Part shown: positions 6,049 to 22,164 of the stretch, in pieces
Layout of the letters: every line of letters begins with the position of its first letter
Numbering within the stretch: the stretch's first letter is position 1
Origin: Halegenticoccus soli
GTDB taxonomy: Archaea > Halobacteriota > Halobacteria > Halobacteriales > Haloferacaceae
Assembly: GCF_002844195.1 (NCBI RefSeq)
Contig: NZ_PEND01000002.1
Coordinates: 434,001 to 498,000, forward strand
Direction of reading: 5' to 3'
Length of the DNA stretch: 64,000 nucleotides
Program-made: the position numbers and the translations under genes
The notes under the pieces: model-generated
What the model saw: only the letters and a program-made list of their open reading frames with translations
What the model was told of the DNA's origin: nothing
Databases searched by the model: none

Positions 6049-6393
6049 TCACTTCTCGTCGACCGAGACGAGCTTCATCAGCGGGTACCCCTCCTCCATC
6101 TCCATGCGCGTGCGCACCGACACGTCCTCGTACCGGATCCGCATCTCCGCCTCCACGAACCGCCCCGTGAGCTCCGCGTAACCGTGCTCGTGTTCGATCG
6201 CCGCGGCCACCTCCTCGTCCAGGATCTCGACGGTCACGGACTCGCAGAACGGCTGGTTCTCTATGGCCTCCTCCATCGCGCGTTCGAGGCTCCGCGCGCT
6301 GTCGGGGCTCACCGGCGTCCCCGCGAACTGGTGGTACAGCGATCCGAACTTGATCCCGGCTTCGAAACACGCCCGCTCGGCGTTCGTCGGCAT
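6049..6393 (-). CDS. mptD: archaeal dihydroneopterin aldolase MptD
   Basis: 114 aa. The sequence MPTNAERACFEAGIKFGSLYHQF at the start and the central EHEHGYAELTGRFVEAEM region match the archaeal dihydroneopterin aldolase family (MptD, formerly DUF372). The enzyme cleaves dihydroneopterin to 6-hydroxymethyl-dihydropterin and glycolaldehyde, an early step towards folate/methanopterin-type cofactors. This small archaeal enzyme is unrelated to bacterial FolB. It is a single gene, divergent from azf with 149 nt between them. The length fits the family. Confidence 0.9.
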   Translation of the reverse strand: MPTNAERACFEAGIKFGSLYHQFAGTPVSPDSARSLERAMEEAIENQPFCESVTVEILDEEVAAAIEHEHGYAELTGRFVEAEMRIRYEDVSVRTRMEMEEGYPLMKLVSVDEK

Positions 6394-6542
6394 GGTGAGA
6401 CCGAACGGGGCGGACGGCTAAGTTCTGTCGTCGCGCGGCGGTTTCGCGCCCGACGAGTCGGGAAAGGGGACTGACAGTTCCGCCGGCGAGCGCCCGCGAA
6501 ACCGGACCTTACTTAGCCTCCTCTTTTCCAATATCTACCCGA

Positions 6543-15441: not shown

Positions 15442-15514
15442 GCCGTCGTAGCTCAGTTGGTAGAGCACCTCGCTGTTAACGAGGTGGTCCCAGGTTCGAG
15501 CCCTGGCGACGGCG
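15442..15514 (+). tRNA. tRNA-Asn (GTT)
   Basis: A 73-nt cloverleaf. The acceptor stem is GCCGTCG/CGACGGC with discriminator G. The anticodon arm CCTCG-CTGTTAA-CGAGG gives GTT. T-arm CCAGG-TTCGAGC-CCTGG. No intron. No 3'-end copy is evident downstream, unlike the minus-strand tRNAs. Confidence 0.97.
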
Positions 15515-15649
15515 CTTCTTCGCACATCGACGCTCGAAGGACTATCGCCTCTCGGCTTCGACGACTCCTGTCCAGATCGGACGTCCGTATTTGACTGACT
15601 TGTATTTGCAGCCTCAACGGATAGTCACGCGCAGTTCGATTTTCGGCGT

Positions 15650-15754
15650 ATGCGTTCAGTCGTCGGCGCCGTTCGGTCGGTGCTCCGCTCGGTGATCAAC
15701 CTGCTGATCTTCGTCGTGACGCTCCCCCTCCGGTTGCTCCGGCGGATCCTGTGA
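15650..15754 (+). CDS. 34-aa cationic membrane microprotein
   Basis: The ATG at 15650 opens a 35-codon frame ending in TGA at 15752-15754. The product (starting MRSVVGAVRSVLRSVINLL) is one hydrophobic helix flanked by arginines at both ends (LPLRLLRRIL at the C-terminus). This is an amphipathic or membrane-inserted peptide, strikingly basic for a halophile. It sits in the gap between tRNA-Asn and tRNA-Met, and TATTTGCAGCC/GATTTTCGGC upstream is AT-richer than average. I recall similar very short haloarchaeal membrane proteins but cannot name a family. Coding status is inferred. Confidence 0.5.
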   Translation: MRSVVGAVRSVLRSVINLLIFVVTLPLRLLRRIL

Positions 15755-15833
15755 CCCGTATGTGGCGTCTCGGTGGAACCTTCACCGCGAGAGAGTAACG
15801 CTCAAGAGGGCCGCACCGGTAGTCGTTCCTGTC

Positions 15834-15970
15834 GGGCCCTTAGCTCAGTCTGGTTAGAGCGCTCGGCTCATAATGGCACCCGAAGCGGCGTCTTGACCTC
15901 GAACGCGAGGTTCGACGGTTCGGCGTCATGGGACACCGAGTGGTCGTTGGTTCGAATCCGACAGGGCCCA
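15834..15970 (+). tRNA. tRNA-Met (CAT), elongator, with 62-nt intron
   Basis: Exon 1 is 15834-15872 (acceptor GGGCCCT, anticodon loop CTCATA). Exon 2 is 15935-15970 (A CCGAG..., T-arm GGTTCGAATCC, AGGGCCC, discriminator A). The intron 15873-15934 follows position 37, the canonical archaeal site, and can pair with the exons to form a bulge-helix-bulge for the splicing endonuclease. Removing it gives a standard elongator tRNA-Met. Intron-bearing elongator tRNA-Met is a known haloarchaeal feature. Confidence 0.93.
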
Positions 15971-16097
15971 TCTGAGTGCCTGAGCGACAGCGAAGGCCGA
16001 CGTGCTCTCCCGAAGGATTCGAACGACAGAACGAGGGAGTAGAGCGACCGACGTTCGAGTCCCCGAAGCGAAGCTCGCCGTGAGGTGTCTCGGTGTT

Positions 16098-16140
16098 ACA
16101 AAAACAAAAGTACGTGAGTCGTTTTGCCGCGTAACGCGGC
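16098..16140 (-). terminator. hairpin plus T-rich tract downstream of csp
   Basis: On the minus strand, just past the cold-shock gene stop, a perfect GCCGCG-TTA-CGCGGC hairpin (16126-16140) is followed by the T-rich run ACTTTTGTTTTTGT (16098-16111). A U-tract terminator is the usual archaeal type; the hairpin may stabilise the mRNA 3' end. Confidence 0.6.
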
Positions 16141-16153
16141 GTACTAAACTGAT

Positions 16154-16348
16154 TTACAGGCGCGTGAGGTTCGTCGCGCGCGGGCCCTTGGGGGCCTGTT
16201 CGATGTCGAATTCCACTTCCGTTCCTTCCTCGAGGTCAGCGCCGCCGATGTCTTCCATGTGGAAGAACACGTCGTCGTCCGCGTCGTCCGTCGAGATGAA
16301 ACCGTAGCCGCCAGTGTCGTTGAAGAAATCAACGTTACCTTTCGCCAT
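16154..16348 (-). CDS. cspA: cold-shock domain protein
   Basis: 64 aa, a single five-stranded OB cold-shock domain. The RNA-binding motifs are GGYGFIS (RNP1) and VFFHMED (RNP2). The start ATG 16346-16348 (MAKGNVDFFNDTGGYG) is about 30 nt from a TATA-like GCCTTATCCG, giving a very short leader. It binds single-stranded nucleic acid and acts as an RNA chaperone. Haloarchaea usually carry one or several stand-alone copies. Confidence 0.94.
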   Translation of the reverse strand: MAKGNVDFFNDTGGYGFISTDDADDDVFFHMEDIGGADLEEGTEVEFDIEQAPKGPRATNLTRL

Positions 16349-16603
16349 TGCTTTTGAACACAACGGGGGTACACGGATAAGGCTTGCGAGGGTCGTAGTA
16401 CCACGATCGAGATTCAGTTGACACCCTGTTCCGAAGAGGAAGAAACAGTGAGCAAACGTACTCGGATCGTCGAACGGCGAGCGATTCGGCGACCACTCGG
16501 GCGGCGATCGATCGGACTCCTGTAGTACCCACGCTTTCGGCGGCCGTTTCGGCCGTCGAAAGTTCGAGGGGGCTTTACGGACGGCGCGTCAGAATTGACA
16601 CCC

Positions 16604-17457: not shown

Positions 17458-17493
17458 ATATTAGCACACCATAATATTAGGAATAGCTAATAT
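17458..17493 (+). promoter_or_regulatory. arsR promoter/operator (ATATTAG repeats)
   Basis: An ATATTAG at 17458-17464, about 26-30 nt before the ATG, is a likely TATA box. The palindrome ATATTAG-GAATAG-CTAATAT (17474-17493) covers the predicted transcription start and overlaps the first bases of the arsR start codon region. A perfect 7-bp inverted repeat at this place is what an autoregulatory ArsR dimer would bind. AT-rich against a GC-rich background. Confidence 0.7.
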
Positions 17494-17854
17494 GACACCC
17501 AAACGAGAGCGGTATCACGCGACGAGCGCGACCGAGTCGTGCTGTTCGACCGGTCACCGGCTTTCGGACGCCGAACTGGCCGCCGACGTCCGGCTCCTGG
17601 CGGCCGCGGGGAGCGAAACGCGGTACGAGGCGCTCCGCCTCATCGCGGACGCCGACGGAGAGGTTTGCGCCTGCGAACTCGAACCCGCCCTGGCCGTGAG
17701 TCAGGGGGCGGTCAGTCAGGCGCTTTCCCGTCTCCGCGCCGCCGGGCTGGTCACGCGGCGAAAGGACGGGCGGTGGCGCTACTACGGCGTGACGCCCGAA
17801 GCGGAACGGCTGCTGAGCGCGCTAGACGAAATTAGAGAGTCCACCCATGAGTGA
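17492..17854 (+). CDS. arsR: ArsR-family metalloregulator
   Basis: 120 aa winged helix-turn-helix. The recognition region is VSQGAVSQALSRLRAAGLVTRRKDGRWRYYGVT. Candidate thiol ligands are Cys17-Cys18 near the N-terminus (ESCCST) and the Cys-x-Cys of EVCACELEPAL in the metal-sensing helix, the classical As(III)/Cd site position. It should repress its own promoter and the downstream arsM until metalloid binding releases it. The stop overlaps the arsM start by 8 nt (translational coupling). Confidence 0.9.
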   Translation: MTPKRERYHATSATESCCSTGHRLSDAELAADVRLLAAAGSETRYEALRLIADADGEVCACELEPALAVSQGAVSQALSRLRAAGLVTRRKDGRWRYYGVTPEAERLLSALDEIRESTHE

Positions 17855-18671
17855 AGACGCGGCTTCGACGGAGGCTGAATCGGGAGATCTAACCGCGGCG
17901 GAACAGCGGCGGGCCGTCCGAGAACGGTACGCTCGCATCGCTACGGAGTCGTCCGGCTGCTGCGGCGAATCGACGGGCTGCGACGAGGCGGACGCGGACG
18001 ATCGGGCGAAACGGCTCGGCTACGCTGAAGACGACCTGGCGTCCGTCGCGGACGGAGCCAACCTGGGACTCGGCTGCGGTAACCCGAACGCCCTCGCGTC
18101 GCTTCGGGAGGGGGAAACCGTTCTCGACCTCGGTTCGGGGGGCGGCTTCGATTGCTTCCTCGCCGCTCGGGAGGTCGGCGATTCGGGTCGCGTCATCGGC
18201 GTCGACATGACGCCGGAGATGGTTGAACGGGCGCGGGAGAACGCGGAGAAGAACGACGCGCGCAACGTCGAGTTCCGTCTCGGCGAAATCGAGCACCTTC
18301 CCGTCGCCGACGGGTCCGTCGACGTCGTCATCTCCAACTGCGTCGTCAACCTCTCGCCGTCCAAGCCCCAGGTGTTCCGCGACGCGTACCGCGTTCTTCG
18401 ACCGGGCGGACGGCTCGCGATCTCGGACGTCGTGGTGACGGCGAGCCTCCCGGAAGACGTGAGGAGCGACCCCGAATCGGTCGCGGCGTGCGTCGCCGGC
18501 GCGTCGACTATCGACGCGCTCGAAGAGATGCTCGCCACCGCCGGCTTCGAGCGGGTTCGCATCTCGCCAAAGGGGGAGAGTCGGTCGTTCATCCGCGAGT
18601 GGGACGACGACCGCGACCTCGGCGACTACCTCGTCTCCGCGAGCATCGAAGGCCGAAAGCCGGCGCACTGA
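17847..18671 (+). CDS. arsM: arsenite S-adenosylmethionine methyltransferase
   Basis: 274 aa. The Cys-rich N-terminal segment SSGCCGESTGC, SAM motif VLDLGSGGGFDCFLAAREVG, GVDMTPEMVERAR, the conserved VISNCVVNLSPSK with the catalytic Cys, and VLRPGGRLAISDVV are diagnostic of ArsM. It methylates As(III) to less toxic or volatile species. Overlaps arsR by 8 nt, so the pair is one inducible detoxification operon. No arsenite pump gene (arsB/acr3/arsA) is nearby. Confidence 0.93.
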   Translation: MSEDAASTEAESGDLTAAEQRRAVRERYARIATESSGCCGESTGCDEADADDRAKRLGYAEDDLASVADGANLGLGCGNPNALASLREGETVLDLGSGGGFDCFLAAREVGDSGRVIGVDMTPEMVERARENAEKNDARNVEFRLGEIEHLPVADGSVDVVISNCVVNLSPSKPQVFRDAYRVLRPGGRLAISDVVVTASLPEDVRSDPESVAACVAGASTIDALEEMLATAGFERVRISPKGESRSFIREWDDDRDLGDYLVSASIEGRKPAH

Positions 18672-19128: not shown

Positions 19129-20607
19129 ATGGCAACCACTACCGACGCGTGGTTCGGAGCCGGCGGTGGCGACAACCGATTCGTCTACGTCACCGCCGCC
19201 CTCGCCGCGCTGAACGGGCTACTGTTCGGATTCGACACGGGCGTCATCTCCGGGGCGTTTCTCTACATCAGAGAGGCGTTCGAGATGACCTCCCTTTTCG
19301 GGATCGCGATGGATCCCTCCTGGGTGCAGGGGCTGGTGGTGAGCGGCGCGCTGATCGGGGCGGTGATCGGCGCGGCCACCGGCGGCTACCTGGCCGACAG
19401 AATCGGGCGGCGGCGGCTCATCCTGATCGCGGCCGTCGTGTTCTTCGTCGGGTCGCTGACGATGGCGATCGCGCCGAACGTCGAGGTGCTCGTCGTCGGC
19501 CGCGTCGTCGACGGCGTCGCCATCGGCTTCGCCTCCATCGTCGGGCCGCTGTACATCTCGGAGATATCGCCGCCGAAGATCCGCGGGTCGCTCGTGTCGT
19601 TCAACCAGCTCGCCATCACCAGCGGCATCCTCGCGTCCTACCTGGTGAACTACGCGGTCTCGTACTTCGTGGACTCCGTGCTCACCGGCGAGCTCGCGTG
19701 GCGCATCATGCTCGGGACGGGGATGGCCCCCGCCGTCGTCCTGCTCGTCGGCATGCTGTTCATGCCCGAGAGCCCGCGGTGGCTCGTCGAGCGCGGCCGG
19801 GAGAGCGCCGCGCGCGACGTCCTCTCGCGGACCCGCGACGAGGCGGGCGTCGAGGCGGAGCTGAACGAGATCAAACAGACCGAGGAGATTCAAGAAGAGG
19901 GGCTCTCGGAGCTGTTCGAGCCGTGGATCCGGCCGGCGCTCGTCGTCGGCATCGGGCTCGCGGCGTTCCAGCAGGTGACGGGCATCAACACGGTCATCTA
20001 CTACGCGCCGACGATCCTCGAATCGACCGGGTTCGGGAACTCCGCGTCCATCCTGGCGACCGTCGGCATCGGCGTCGTCAACGTCGCCATGACCGTCGTC
20101 GCGGTGCTGCTCATGGACCGCGCCGGCCGCCGCCCGCTGCTCATGGTCGGCCTCGCCGGGATGACGGTCACGCTCGTCGTGCTCGGTGCGGCGTTCTTCC
20201 TGCCGGGGCTGTCGGGCGTCGTGGGCTGGGCGGCCCTCGCGAGCCTGATGCTCTACGTGGCGTTCTTCGCGATCGGCCTCGGGCCGGTGTTCTGGCTCCT
20301 CATCTCCGAGATCTACCCGCTCAAGGTGCGCGGATCGGCGATGGGCGTCGTGACGGTCGTCAACTGGCTCGCGAACCTCGTCGTCGCGCAGACGTTCCTG
20401 CAGCTCGTCGACGCCTTCGGGCAGTCGGGCACGTTCTGGCTGTACGCCGCGCTAAGCGCCGTCGCGCTGGTCTTCACGTACTTCCTCGTGCCCGAAACCA
20501 AGGGCCGCTCCCTCGAAGCGATCGAGGCGGACCTGCGCGAGAGCGCGCTGGGCTCGGAGCGCACGGCGCTCGCCGAGGAAGGGACGCCGGAAGACAGTCT
20601 CGACTGA
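19129..20607 (+). CDS. MFS sugar porter (GLUT/XylE type)
   Basis: 492 aa, 12 transmembrane helices. Sugar-porter signatures include GFDTGVISGAFLYIREAF, RIGRRRLI between TM2 and TM3, PESPRWLVERGR, the QQVTGINTVIYYAPTI sugar-binding stretch in TM7, DRAGRRPLL, and the terminal VPETKGRSLEAIE. It imports a monosaccharide, probably by proton or sodium symport; the exact sugar is not readable. AT-rich upstream sequence with TTTATTTATC and GTATATCC provides the promoter. No catabolic genes adjoin it; KdgK lies 8 kb away. Confidence 0.92.
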   Translation: MATTTDAWFGAGGGDNRFVYVTAALAALNGLLFGFDTGVISGAFLYIREAFEMTSLFGIAMDPSWVQGLVVSGALIGAVIGAATGGYLADRIGRRRLILIAAVVFFVGSLTMAIAPNVEVLVVGRVVDGVAIGFASIVGPLYISEISPPKIRGSLVSFNQLAITSGILASYLVNYAVSYFVDSVLTGELAWRIMLGTGMAPAVVLLVGMLFMPESPRWLVERGRESAARDVLSRTRDEAGVEAELNEIKQTEEIQEEGLSELFEPWIRPALVVGIGLAAFQQVTGINTVIYYAPTILESTGFGNSASILATVGIGVVNVAMTVVAVLLMDRAGRRPLLMVGLAGMTVTLVVLGAAFFLPGLSGVVGWAALASLMLYVAFFAIGLGPVFWLLISEIYPLKVRGSAMGVVTVVNWLANLVVAQTFLQLVDAFGQSGTFWLYAALSAVALVFTYFLVPETKGRSLEAIEADLRESALGSERTALAEEGTPEDSLD

Positions 20608-20882
20608 GGCCCGGCGGTCACTGACCGCGGACCACCGATCGCTGATCGCCGACCGCCGGCCACCGGCCACCGCCGCTCTCCGGCCGCGGGTCTCGAATAC
20701 CGACCATCTCGTATTTCGGACGTGTTCGCCCGAGCGACGGCCGTCGTTTCGACCCGCGGTGAGCCCGAAATCCGCTCGTAAATCGCGACTGTATTAACAT
20801 CCGAGCGAAAATAGGTCGGACAACGCATCCGTCTACTGTACCAACCCAATTCCGGCGTAGGCTGCCGATTTAACGAAGGATA
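20608..20882. other. intergenic region with short GC-rich degenerate repeats
   Basis: After the transporter stop there is a CGGTCA-C-TGACCG hairpin (20617-20629 region). Short degenerate units of about ten bases follow (GATCGCTGATCGCC, GACCGCCGGCCACCGGCCACC). They may form the 3' end of the transporter mRNA. Nothing I would call a gene lies here; the sequence then shifts to AT-rich promoter DNA. Confidence 0.5.
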
Positions 20883-20928
20883 TCACTCATTTTAACACAG
20901 TATTAATTACCAGATAGTTATTTATGTA
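20883..20928 (+). promoter_or_regulatory. AT-rich promoter of the pilin gene
   Basis: A pronounced AT island (CTCATTTTAACACAG, TATTAATTACC, AGTTATTTATG) precedes a GC-rich 140-nt leader. TATA-like candidates would place transcription start near 20930-20950, well ahead of the pilin ATG at 21073. Confidence 0.6.
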
Positions 20929-21072
20929 ATGGCTTCGTGTACACGGGTGAACACGTCGGAACGGCGGGACGGTGGTCCGGCGCGCGGCCGATGCCCGGCT
21001 GCGCGCCCGGGGGGAGCCCTGGGAGGTGCCCCCGCAGCGTCCGCTGCCGGTGCGGCGTGGGAGAGGGAGATC

Positions 21073-21504
21073 ATGCAACTGAGAAAACTATTGACGGAGA
21101 ATCGCGCGGTGAGTCCGGTGATCGGCGTCATCCTGATGGTCGCCATCACCGTCATCCTGGCGGCCGTGATCGGCACGTTCGTCCTGGGACTCGGAGATCA
21201 GGTGCAGCAGACGGCTCCGCAGGCGAGCTTCTCGTTTGACTTCCATGACGGTAATCAAGTAACTATTACACATGATGGCGGAGACGCAATTGAAGAAGGG
21301 AATGACCTGACAACTGTGAGTTCAGGTTCGTTCTCAGGTTCTGATGACTGGGCTGACTCCTACGGTACAAGTAAAGTTACCGCTGGGGACTCAATAACGC
21401 GAACGCACGATACCAGCTGGGATGGGGAAACTCTCAGGGTTGTCTGGAATCGAGGCAACGACAATTCCGCAACTCTGGCCAAAGCGACGGCTCCGAGTGC
21501 GTAA
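21073..21504 (+). CDS. type IV pilin with archaeal pilin N-domain
   Basis: 143 aa from ATG 21073 (MQLRKLLTENRAVSPVIG), preceded by a Shine-Dalgarno-like GGGAGA about 10 nt upstream. The class III signal NRAVSPVIG is followed by a ~25-residue hydrophobic helix (VILMVAITVILAAVIGTFVLGL), the hallmark of haloarchaeal pilins cut by PibD and assembled into adhesion pili. The rest is a small Thr/Ser/Asp-rich beta domain. Bases from ~21230 to ~21480 are clearly AT-richer with unusual codons, while the N-terminal part keeps host composition. No pilB/pilC genes adjoin; orphan pilins using shared machinery are normal in haloarchaea. Confidence 0.88.
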   Translation: MQLRKLLTENRAVSPVIGVILMVAITVILAAVIGTFVLGLGDQVQQTAPQASFSFDFHDGNQVTITHDGGDAIEEGNDLTTVSSGSFSGSDDWADSYGTSKVTAGDSITRTHDTSWDGETLRVVWNRGNDNSATLAKATAPSA

Positions 21505-21546
21505 ATAGCGCACTCGTCCTTCTAACGCCGACAGAATTTCACCAGT

Positions 21547-22164
21547 TTACGAGTCCACGGACCCGTCCGAGACGTACGTCTCACGCACTGTCCTTGCAAG
21601 CAGCCCGTCCTTCTCGAACGCGATGTACACGACGACGAACGGCTCGTCCGCGGGTCGCATCACGAACACCTCGCGGTCGCCGTCGTCGTCCAGCCCCTCG
21701 TTCGCCCGTTCGATGAGCGGTTCGATCGGGAGCACGCCGCTTTCGAACTCTCCGAACACGTCGCGCGCGCCCGGTTGCGCCGCGAAGACGTAGAGCACGC
21801 CGTTCGGGTCGCCGTCGGTGTTGCGCGTCACGCGGGAGTTCATCGCGTCGCCGTCGGCCTCGGCCGCCATCCACGTCTCCCGGGCGGCCTCGAACAGCCC
21901 CGTCACGCCGTCGAGAAAGCGGATGCGCGTCCGCCGCAGCACGTCGATCGCCTCGAACCGCGGCGTCCCGTCGTCCCCCCAGGACAGCGTCGCGTCGACG
22001 AGGTAGCCCGGTTCGAGGCCGGCGACTGCCTCGTCGAGCGCCCCGTCGTACCCGTCGGTGCCGACGTAGGTCGGGTCGAACGACTCGGCGTCGATCAGCA
22101 GGAGCTCGTCCGGCGCGCGCGGCCGCCCGAGCACGCGGAACCGCCCGCTCGTCGAGAGTTCCAT
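21547..22164 (-). CDS. conserved haloarchaeal protein of unknown function
   Basis: 205 aa from ATG 22162-22164 (MELSTSGRFRVLGRPRAPDELLL); an in-frame ATG at 22189-22191 would add nine residues. Alternating strands in the first half (GYLVDATLSWGDDGTPRFEAIDVLRRTRIRFLDGVTG) and a helical/strand second half (ARETWMAAEADGDAMNSRVTRN) suggest a compact cytosolic fold. No motif is recognised. Convergent with the pilin gene; oriented like nhaC but 119 nt separate them. Confidence 0.7.
   Translation of the reverse strand: MELSTSGRFRVLGRPRAPDELLLIDAESFDPTYVGTDGYDGALDEAVAGLEPGYLVDATLSWGDDGTPRFEAIDVLRRTRIRFLDGVTGLFEAARETWMAAEADGDAMNSRVTRNTDGDPNGVLYVFAAQPGARDVFGEFESGVLPIEPLIERANEGLDDDGDREVFVMRPADEPFVVVYIAFEKDGLLARTVRETYVSDGSVDS

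Follow-up and report, generated by a model that had tools for sequence, protein, structure and literature searches.

Codon-usage break between anchor and head of a haloarchaeal PilA-type pilin, and a predicted structured leader in pilin mRNAs

Does a break in codon usage within a single gene record the replacement of a part of that gene, or does it reflect a lasting difference in how its parts evolve? We addressed this question at a pilin gene of Halegenticoccus soli, which lies in a 64,000-nucleotide stretch of contig NZ_PEND01000002.1 (positions 434,001 to 498,000), hereafter the window. The open reading frame at 21073-21504 (+) is intact, and its 143-aa product matches PF07790 (Pilin_N) with an E-value of 3.2e-26 and 92.4 bits, against a curated cut-off of 25.2. 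Residues 1-135 align with chain 8fj5_A of the solved relative 8fj5 (E 3e-33) and residues 8-112 with 8gi2_A, the Natrinema PilA2 (E 8.5e-13), although the exposed head is only moderately similar to either. The processing site of a class III signal peptide, ENRAVSP, is present and is of the (R/D)AVS type tabulated in PMC4371748; RAVSP occurs in 89 of the 256 pilins that we collected. Moreover, the H-domain is near-invariant, with residues 12-34 identical across seven aligned pilins. Judged from its sequence, the product is a PilA-type archaeal type IV pilin, and the host genome contains nine PF00482 matches for PilC-like proteins, six of them over the cut-off, any of which could serve it. The parts of the gene and its neighbours are listed in the table.

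The adhesion pilins PilA1-6 of Haloferax volcanii, which also belong to PF07790, share with the window pilin a near-identical H-domain, the RAVS processing motif and a variable head. Unlike H. volcanii, the window genome has a single such pilin at the thresholds used, and this pilin differs from PilA1-6 in its extreme codon shift and in the absence of an N-X-S/T glycosylation site from its head (21208-21501). Such sites are lacking in 3 of 36 pilins that carry a GETxRVVW motif and in 87 of 256 pilins overall.

Table. Features of the pilin locus in the window (coordinates are window positions)
Feature	Coordinates	Strand	Remarks
Upstream gene	19129..20607	+	Counterpart also upstream in the congener
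Predicted TATA-like promoter element	20921..20928	+	Consensus score 10.2; transcription predicted to begin at about 20948
Predicted structured 5' leader of the pilin mRNA	20945..21072	+	Terminal stem of 20952-20958 (CACGTCG) with 21053-21059 (CGGCGTG), which leaves 13 nt to the start codon
Predicted PilA-type archaeal type IV pilin, 143 aa	21073..21504	+	PF07790, 8fj5
Prepilin leader peptide MQLRKLLTENR	21073..21105	+	Codons AT-shifted as at ordinary gene starts
H-domain (AVSPVIGVILMVAITVILAAVIGTFVLGLGD)	21106..21198	+	Codon usage near the host's
Exposed head	21244..21501	+	AT-shifted codons, GC3 about 0.44
Conserved neighbour gene without known function	21550..22164	-	82% identity to the congener gene; marker of the syntenic locus

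Third-position GC (GC3) in the pilin gene drops from about 0.81 to 0.44 at a changepoint at codon 57 (21244; permutation p about 0.002), with near-equal support over codons 52-59 (21229-21250). The first-pass annotation, made from the letters alone, had placed a turn to AT-rich codons at about 21230, and was right about both position and direction. For a 91-codon head, the same residues written in the codon usage of the window would give a GC3 of 0.91 ± 0.03, and 0.46 was observed; total GC was 0.51 against an expected 0.66. A GC3 as low as this was found in none of 2440 91-codon windows from the other predicted genes of the window, the minimum being 0.48. The expected GC3 was computed for the amino acids of the head as they stand, and residue composition was therefore rejected as the cause of the drop. 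The same annotation had described the N-terminal domain as host-like and GC-rich, which holds for the H-domain but not for the N part as a whole, where GC3 is 0.80 against an expected 0.915 ± 0.04, mainly through a dip within the first ten codons. Ordinary window genes also dip at codons 2-11 (mean -0.161, n=31), and their last 90 codons stay at expectation (mean 0.001, SD 0.045, lowest -0.105, n=31). A start-of-gene effect, considered as a cause of the AT shift, accounts for codons 2-11 only.

The break is not peculiar to this gene. We gathered 174 distinct pilin genes from 112 loci and used the 147 with enough neighbouring coding sequence for GC3, building the host codon expectation from a few kb around each gene with a simple gene caller. 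Mean GC3, observed minus locally expected, was -0.196 for the signal peptide and -0.009 for the H-domain; the linker stood at -0.085 and the head at -0.160, and heads were AT-shifted in 131 of the 147 pilins. Held-out pilins from two other families (60 of 88 scored) gave -0.227 for the head, negative in 56 of 60, and -0.065 for the H-domain; archaellin heads shifted in the same direction but less (-0.084, 29 of 39 negative). These data indicate that haloarchaeal pilins normally combine a GC-rich anchor with an AT-rich head, and that archaellins do so weakly. Therefore, an AT-rich head cannot by itself date or prove a domain swap, and composition alone is no sign of a single replacement, which corrects a tempting inference and raises the question of why GC maintenance fails in variable heads.

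The shift is distributed over the head in a graded manner. The most conserved third of head columns deviates by -0.136 and the most variable third by -0.218 (Spearman rho -0.34), and in the window head the corresponding values are -0.38 for the conserved half and -0.57 for the variable half. Since conserved and variable columns are both shifted, the region as a whole is affected, more strongly where columns vary more, and residue turnover is not the whole cause. The slope of GC3 on host GC3 is 0.69 for heads and 0.72 for H-domains, with 177 of 197 heads below expectation. A common AT-rich donor pool, which would give a head slope near zero, is thus not supported, and a shared AT-rich donor is unlikely because heads and anchors follow host GC3 alike. 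The break had originally been read as the trace of a replaced exposed domain. In view of its family-wide occurrence and of heads that track their hosts, this reading does not follow from composition, although the part of it that has the anchor kept while the head turns over stands. Nevertheless, the shift in the window gene ranks first among the 147 (head GC3 0.43 against 0.91), and the general regime alone does not explain this rank.

A head replaced by recombination at the conserved H-domain, with an AT-richer head acquired from another haloarchaeon and leader, anchor and locus retained, would account for the outlier, and we regard this as possible, although the odds are somewhat against it. 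The locus is indeed conserved: in the congener Halegenticoccus tardaugens (loci L062 and L003), a pilin gene lies at the same place, with the conserved downstream gene on the opposite strand. The protein of this neighbour gene is 82% identical between window and congener and at most 71% identical elsewhere, and among the best 30 of 136 genomes with the neighbour gene, checked over flanks of about 1.5 kb, a pilin lies beside it in these two only. No leader at any locus matches that of the window better than the leader of the congener gene (score 24.4, next 5.2), and yet the congener head comes 168th among at most 174 in similarity to the window head, with 38% identity where heads from other genera reach up to 52%. 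A head search at 1e-3 found matches in 88 of 170 genomes of the family, the congener not among them. Tandem pilins with near-identical anchors in many relatives, and related pilins on 43 plasmid records as a possible transfer route, fit an exchange of heads as well. However, holding the two heads as one clade cost 19 log units but was not rejected (p-AU=0.204) in an AU test on 49 of 168 heads, pooled from the 28 closest to either head, and the congener head sits on a very long branch of the head tree, so that the changed lineage may be the congener's and a fast change of its head also fits. The anchor is too invariant for a tree and its silent sites are too diverged (third-position identity to the congener 0.53). 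No close donor head was found in 170 genomes of the family and 391 of the class; the best reaches 53% protein identity, and for this reason no donor is named. That head GC3 follows the host likewise speaks against an imported head. The earlier proposal that the exposed domain was exchanged while the assembly domain stayed fixed is thus partly supported: the anchor is retained and the congener head is very different, but the exchange itself is unproven.

Two further explanations were weighed. Selection for unstructured mRNA or for translation speed, acting on an exported protein with high expression, would agree with AT3-rich heads throughout the family and with a start-codon region that is more open in pilin leaders than in controls (0.62 against 0.46 unpaired). 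However, the H-domain is not shifted, and at fixed codon content the order of codons does not lower folding: over 171 heads the mean z is -0.49, which means slightly more structure, with 55 heads above zero. Selection against mRNA structure in heads is therefore unsupported by the codon-order test, and we consider this explanation improbable. Antigenic variation that draws on silent cassettes within the genome, as in Neisseria, is much less probable still. Gonococcal PilE has a constant N part and a variable head, and the layout of the window pilin is alike; but searches of its own genome with the head at E 1e-3 and with PF07790 at E 0.001 returned one match each, and found no silent cassettes, second copy or partial copies.

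We consider the best overall explanation, at about even odds, to be that the codon break marks the border of two evolutionary regimes. In a putative adhesion pilin of the PilA type, the conserved H-domain would build the filament core and the exposed head would turn over fast; the anchor would keep the codon usage of the host, and the variable head module would maintain GC-rich codon usage poorly. As to the cause, we infer that heads too diverged to recombine with one another may escape homogenising gene conversion. Because it is common to haloarchaeal pilins, the break would mainly be a lasting regional property rather than the scar of a single event. An additional head replacement in the window lineage or that of the congener is plausible, though unproven, because the shift is exceptionally strong here and the congener head at the same locus is very different.

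Carriage by phages was also considered. Relatives of the window pilin among virus records and IMG/VR were confined to one virus, Saline Natrinema sp. J7-1 virus 2, with two records, and to a single IMG/VR contig, all of them distant, and no phage link of the window pilin was found in these collections. In NC_074646.1, one of the records of this virus, the pilin-like stretch at 6114-6416 (44% over residues 9-109) has no annotated feature. Virus pressure on pilins is supported in another archaeon, Sulfolobus islandicus, in which pilin loss is reported to give virus resistance (PMC7217056).

The region upstream of the pilin gene provides a more novel lead than the composition of the head. Transcript starts were predicted from the TATA-like score alone, and pairing was scored as the number of pairs expected between the initial 22 nt of a leader and its last 34 nt (minus the final few), compared with 20 dinucleotide shuffles. 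Among 172 pilins with 200 nt upstream, 96 unique leaders had a good TATA score at a distance of 45-150 nt, some of them inside tandem pilin arrays. These leaders averaged 9.92 expected pairs against 4.40 in shuffles; 72% reached at least 8 pairs (22% of shuffles), and 34 of the 96 beat all 20 shuffles. By comparison, 44 control genes taken from these loci and from the window gave 4.76 against 4.82 (1 of 44 beating all shuffles), and a wider control gave 4.78 against 4.77 (2 of 63). The result was repeated in 35 leaders of the held-out families, with 10.10 pairs against 4.57, 26 leaders reaching 8 and 13 beating all shuffles. Leaders with at least 8 pairs occur in 16 of the 19 genus labels among named loci. 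An initial scan that did not use the promoter had found a modest excess (mean 9.69 against 8.94; a score of at least 12 in 14% against 6%). Archaellin leaders are weak in this respect (6.34 against 4.98; 2 of 23 above all shuffles), and several archaellin genes (L149, L152, L155, L158, L162) have short leader hairpins that end before the start codon.

Further analysis exchanged the arms of the stem between leaders, since each arm would be expected to fit its own partner best if pairing persists as sequences diverge. Across 61 dissimilar leaders, pairing with the own partner was favoured by 4.60 kcal/mol over pairing with an exchanged one (permutation p 0.0002), against 0.97 ± 0.30 with shuffled arms; the TATA threshold in this set was 8.7 instead of 9.2, to take in the congener. 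For 21 held-out leaders the advantage was 3.92 (p 0.0002), against 0.20 with shuffled arms. The window leader taken alone is unexceptional (total -74.3 kcal/mol, z -1.72, with 8 of 200 shuffles folding as well). MAFFT/RNAalifold failed to give a consensus for 13 leaders (3 pairs, -0.8 kcal/mol), and the 12-pair helix obtained from another seven leaders says little on covariation because it is mostly invariant. Rfam had no match in window positions 20500-22000 at E up to 1 and none at gathering in 20 pilin loci.

Based on these folding predictions, we lean slightly towards the view that haloarchaeal PilA-type pilin mRNAs carry a previously undescribed structured leader of about 45-150 nt. Its 5' end would be closed by a long-range stem, the other strand of which would end roughly 8-15 nt before the open start codon, with a stem sequence that varies by lineage and a pairing that is kept. 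No description of such a pilin leader was recognised in the mostly open-access literature covered on pilin UTRs and stem-loops, structured RNAs of Halobacteria and pilin leader motifs. In H. volcanii, 72% of protein-coding transcripts are leaderless and highly expressed genes typically so (PMC4983044). The pilA4-pilA3 transcript of this species starts with a 5'-UTR exceeding 100 nt, which is described as rare for haloarchaea and was found by dRNA-Seq, RNA-Seq and Northern blot (PMC6490895); it thus resembles the predicted window transcript in being a pilin mRNA with a long leader; the available sections of that paper describe no structure for it. They also report that H. volcanii pilin transcripts are least abundant in stationary phase, with four- to sixfold more in growing cells. 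In four of our Haloferax loci (L011, L014, L015 and L023), a DAVS pilin comes after a RAVS pilin and the predicted leader measures 107-117 nt; these loci are likely the pilA4-pilA3 counterparts. Halobacterium salinarum pil-1 likewise has a putative stem-loop in the 5'-UTR of a pilus gene (PMC4292770); that stem-loop precedes pilB1 rather than a pilin and masks the SD and the start codon, whereas the start region of the window gene stays open.

Such a leader could shield the mRNA from archaeal RNase J-type 5'-to-3' exonucleases or be a growth-dependent control point. In bacteria, 5'-terminal stem-loops counteract mRNA degradation, as stated in PMC3792030, the reference list of which cites euryarchaeal RNase J-like 5'-to-3' exonucleases; by analogy, protection from 5'-to-3' decay may extend to the pilin leader. 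The question raised is whether archaeal surface-filament mRNAs are controlled, in their stability or their translation, by a closed leader that is conserved.

Several other features were observed at and around the locus. The upstream gene at 19129..20607 is presumably a sugar-transporter-like MFS gene, and at the congener locus we take the upstream gene to be a sugar transporter and the gene beyond one further gene downstream to be an NhaC-like transporter. Locus L062 of the congener also contains a second, unlike pilin-like gene (2201-2686, 161 aa) upstream of the orthologous pilin, which is absent from the window. Elsewhere in the window, GC drops to 0.61-0.56 over 15500-16500, after a tRNA-Asn gene at 15442. 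Two adjacent genes at 17492-18671, which we assume to encode an ArsR-type regulator and an arsenite-methyltransferase-like protein, have GC3 values of 0.79 and 0.83, lower than most of the window.
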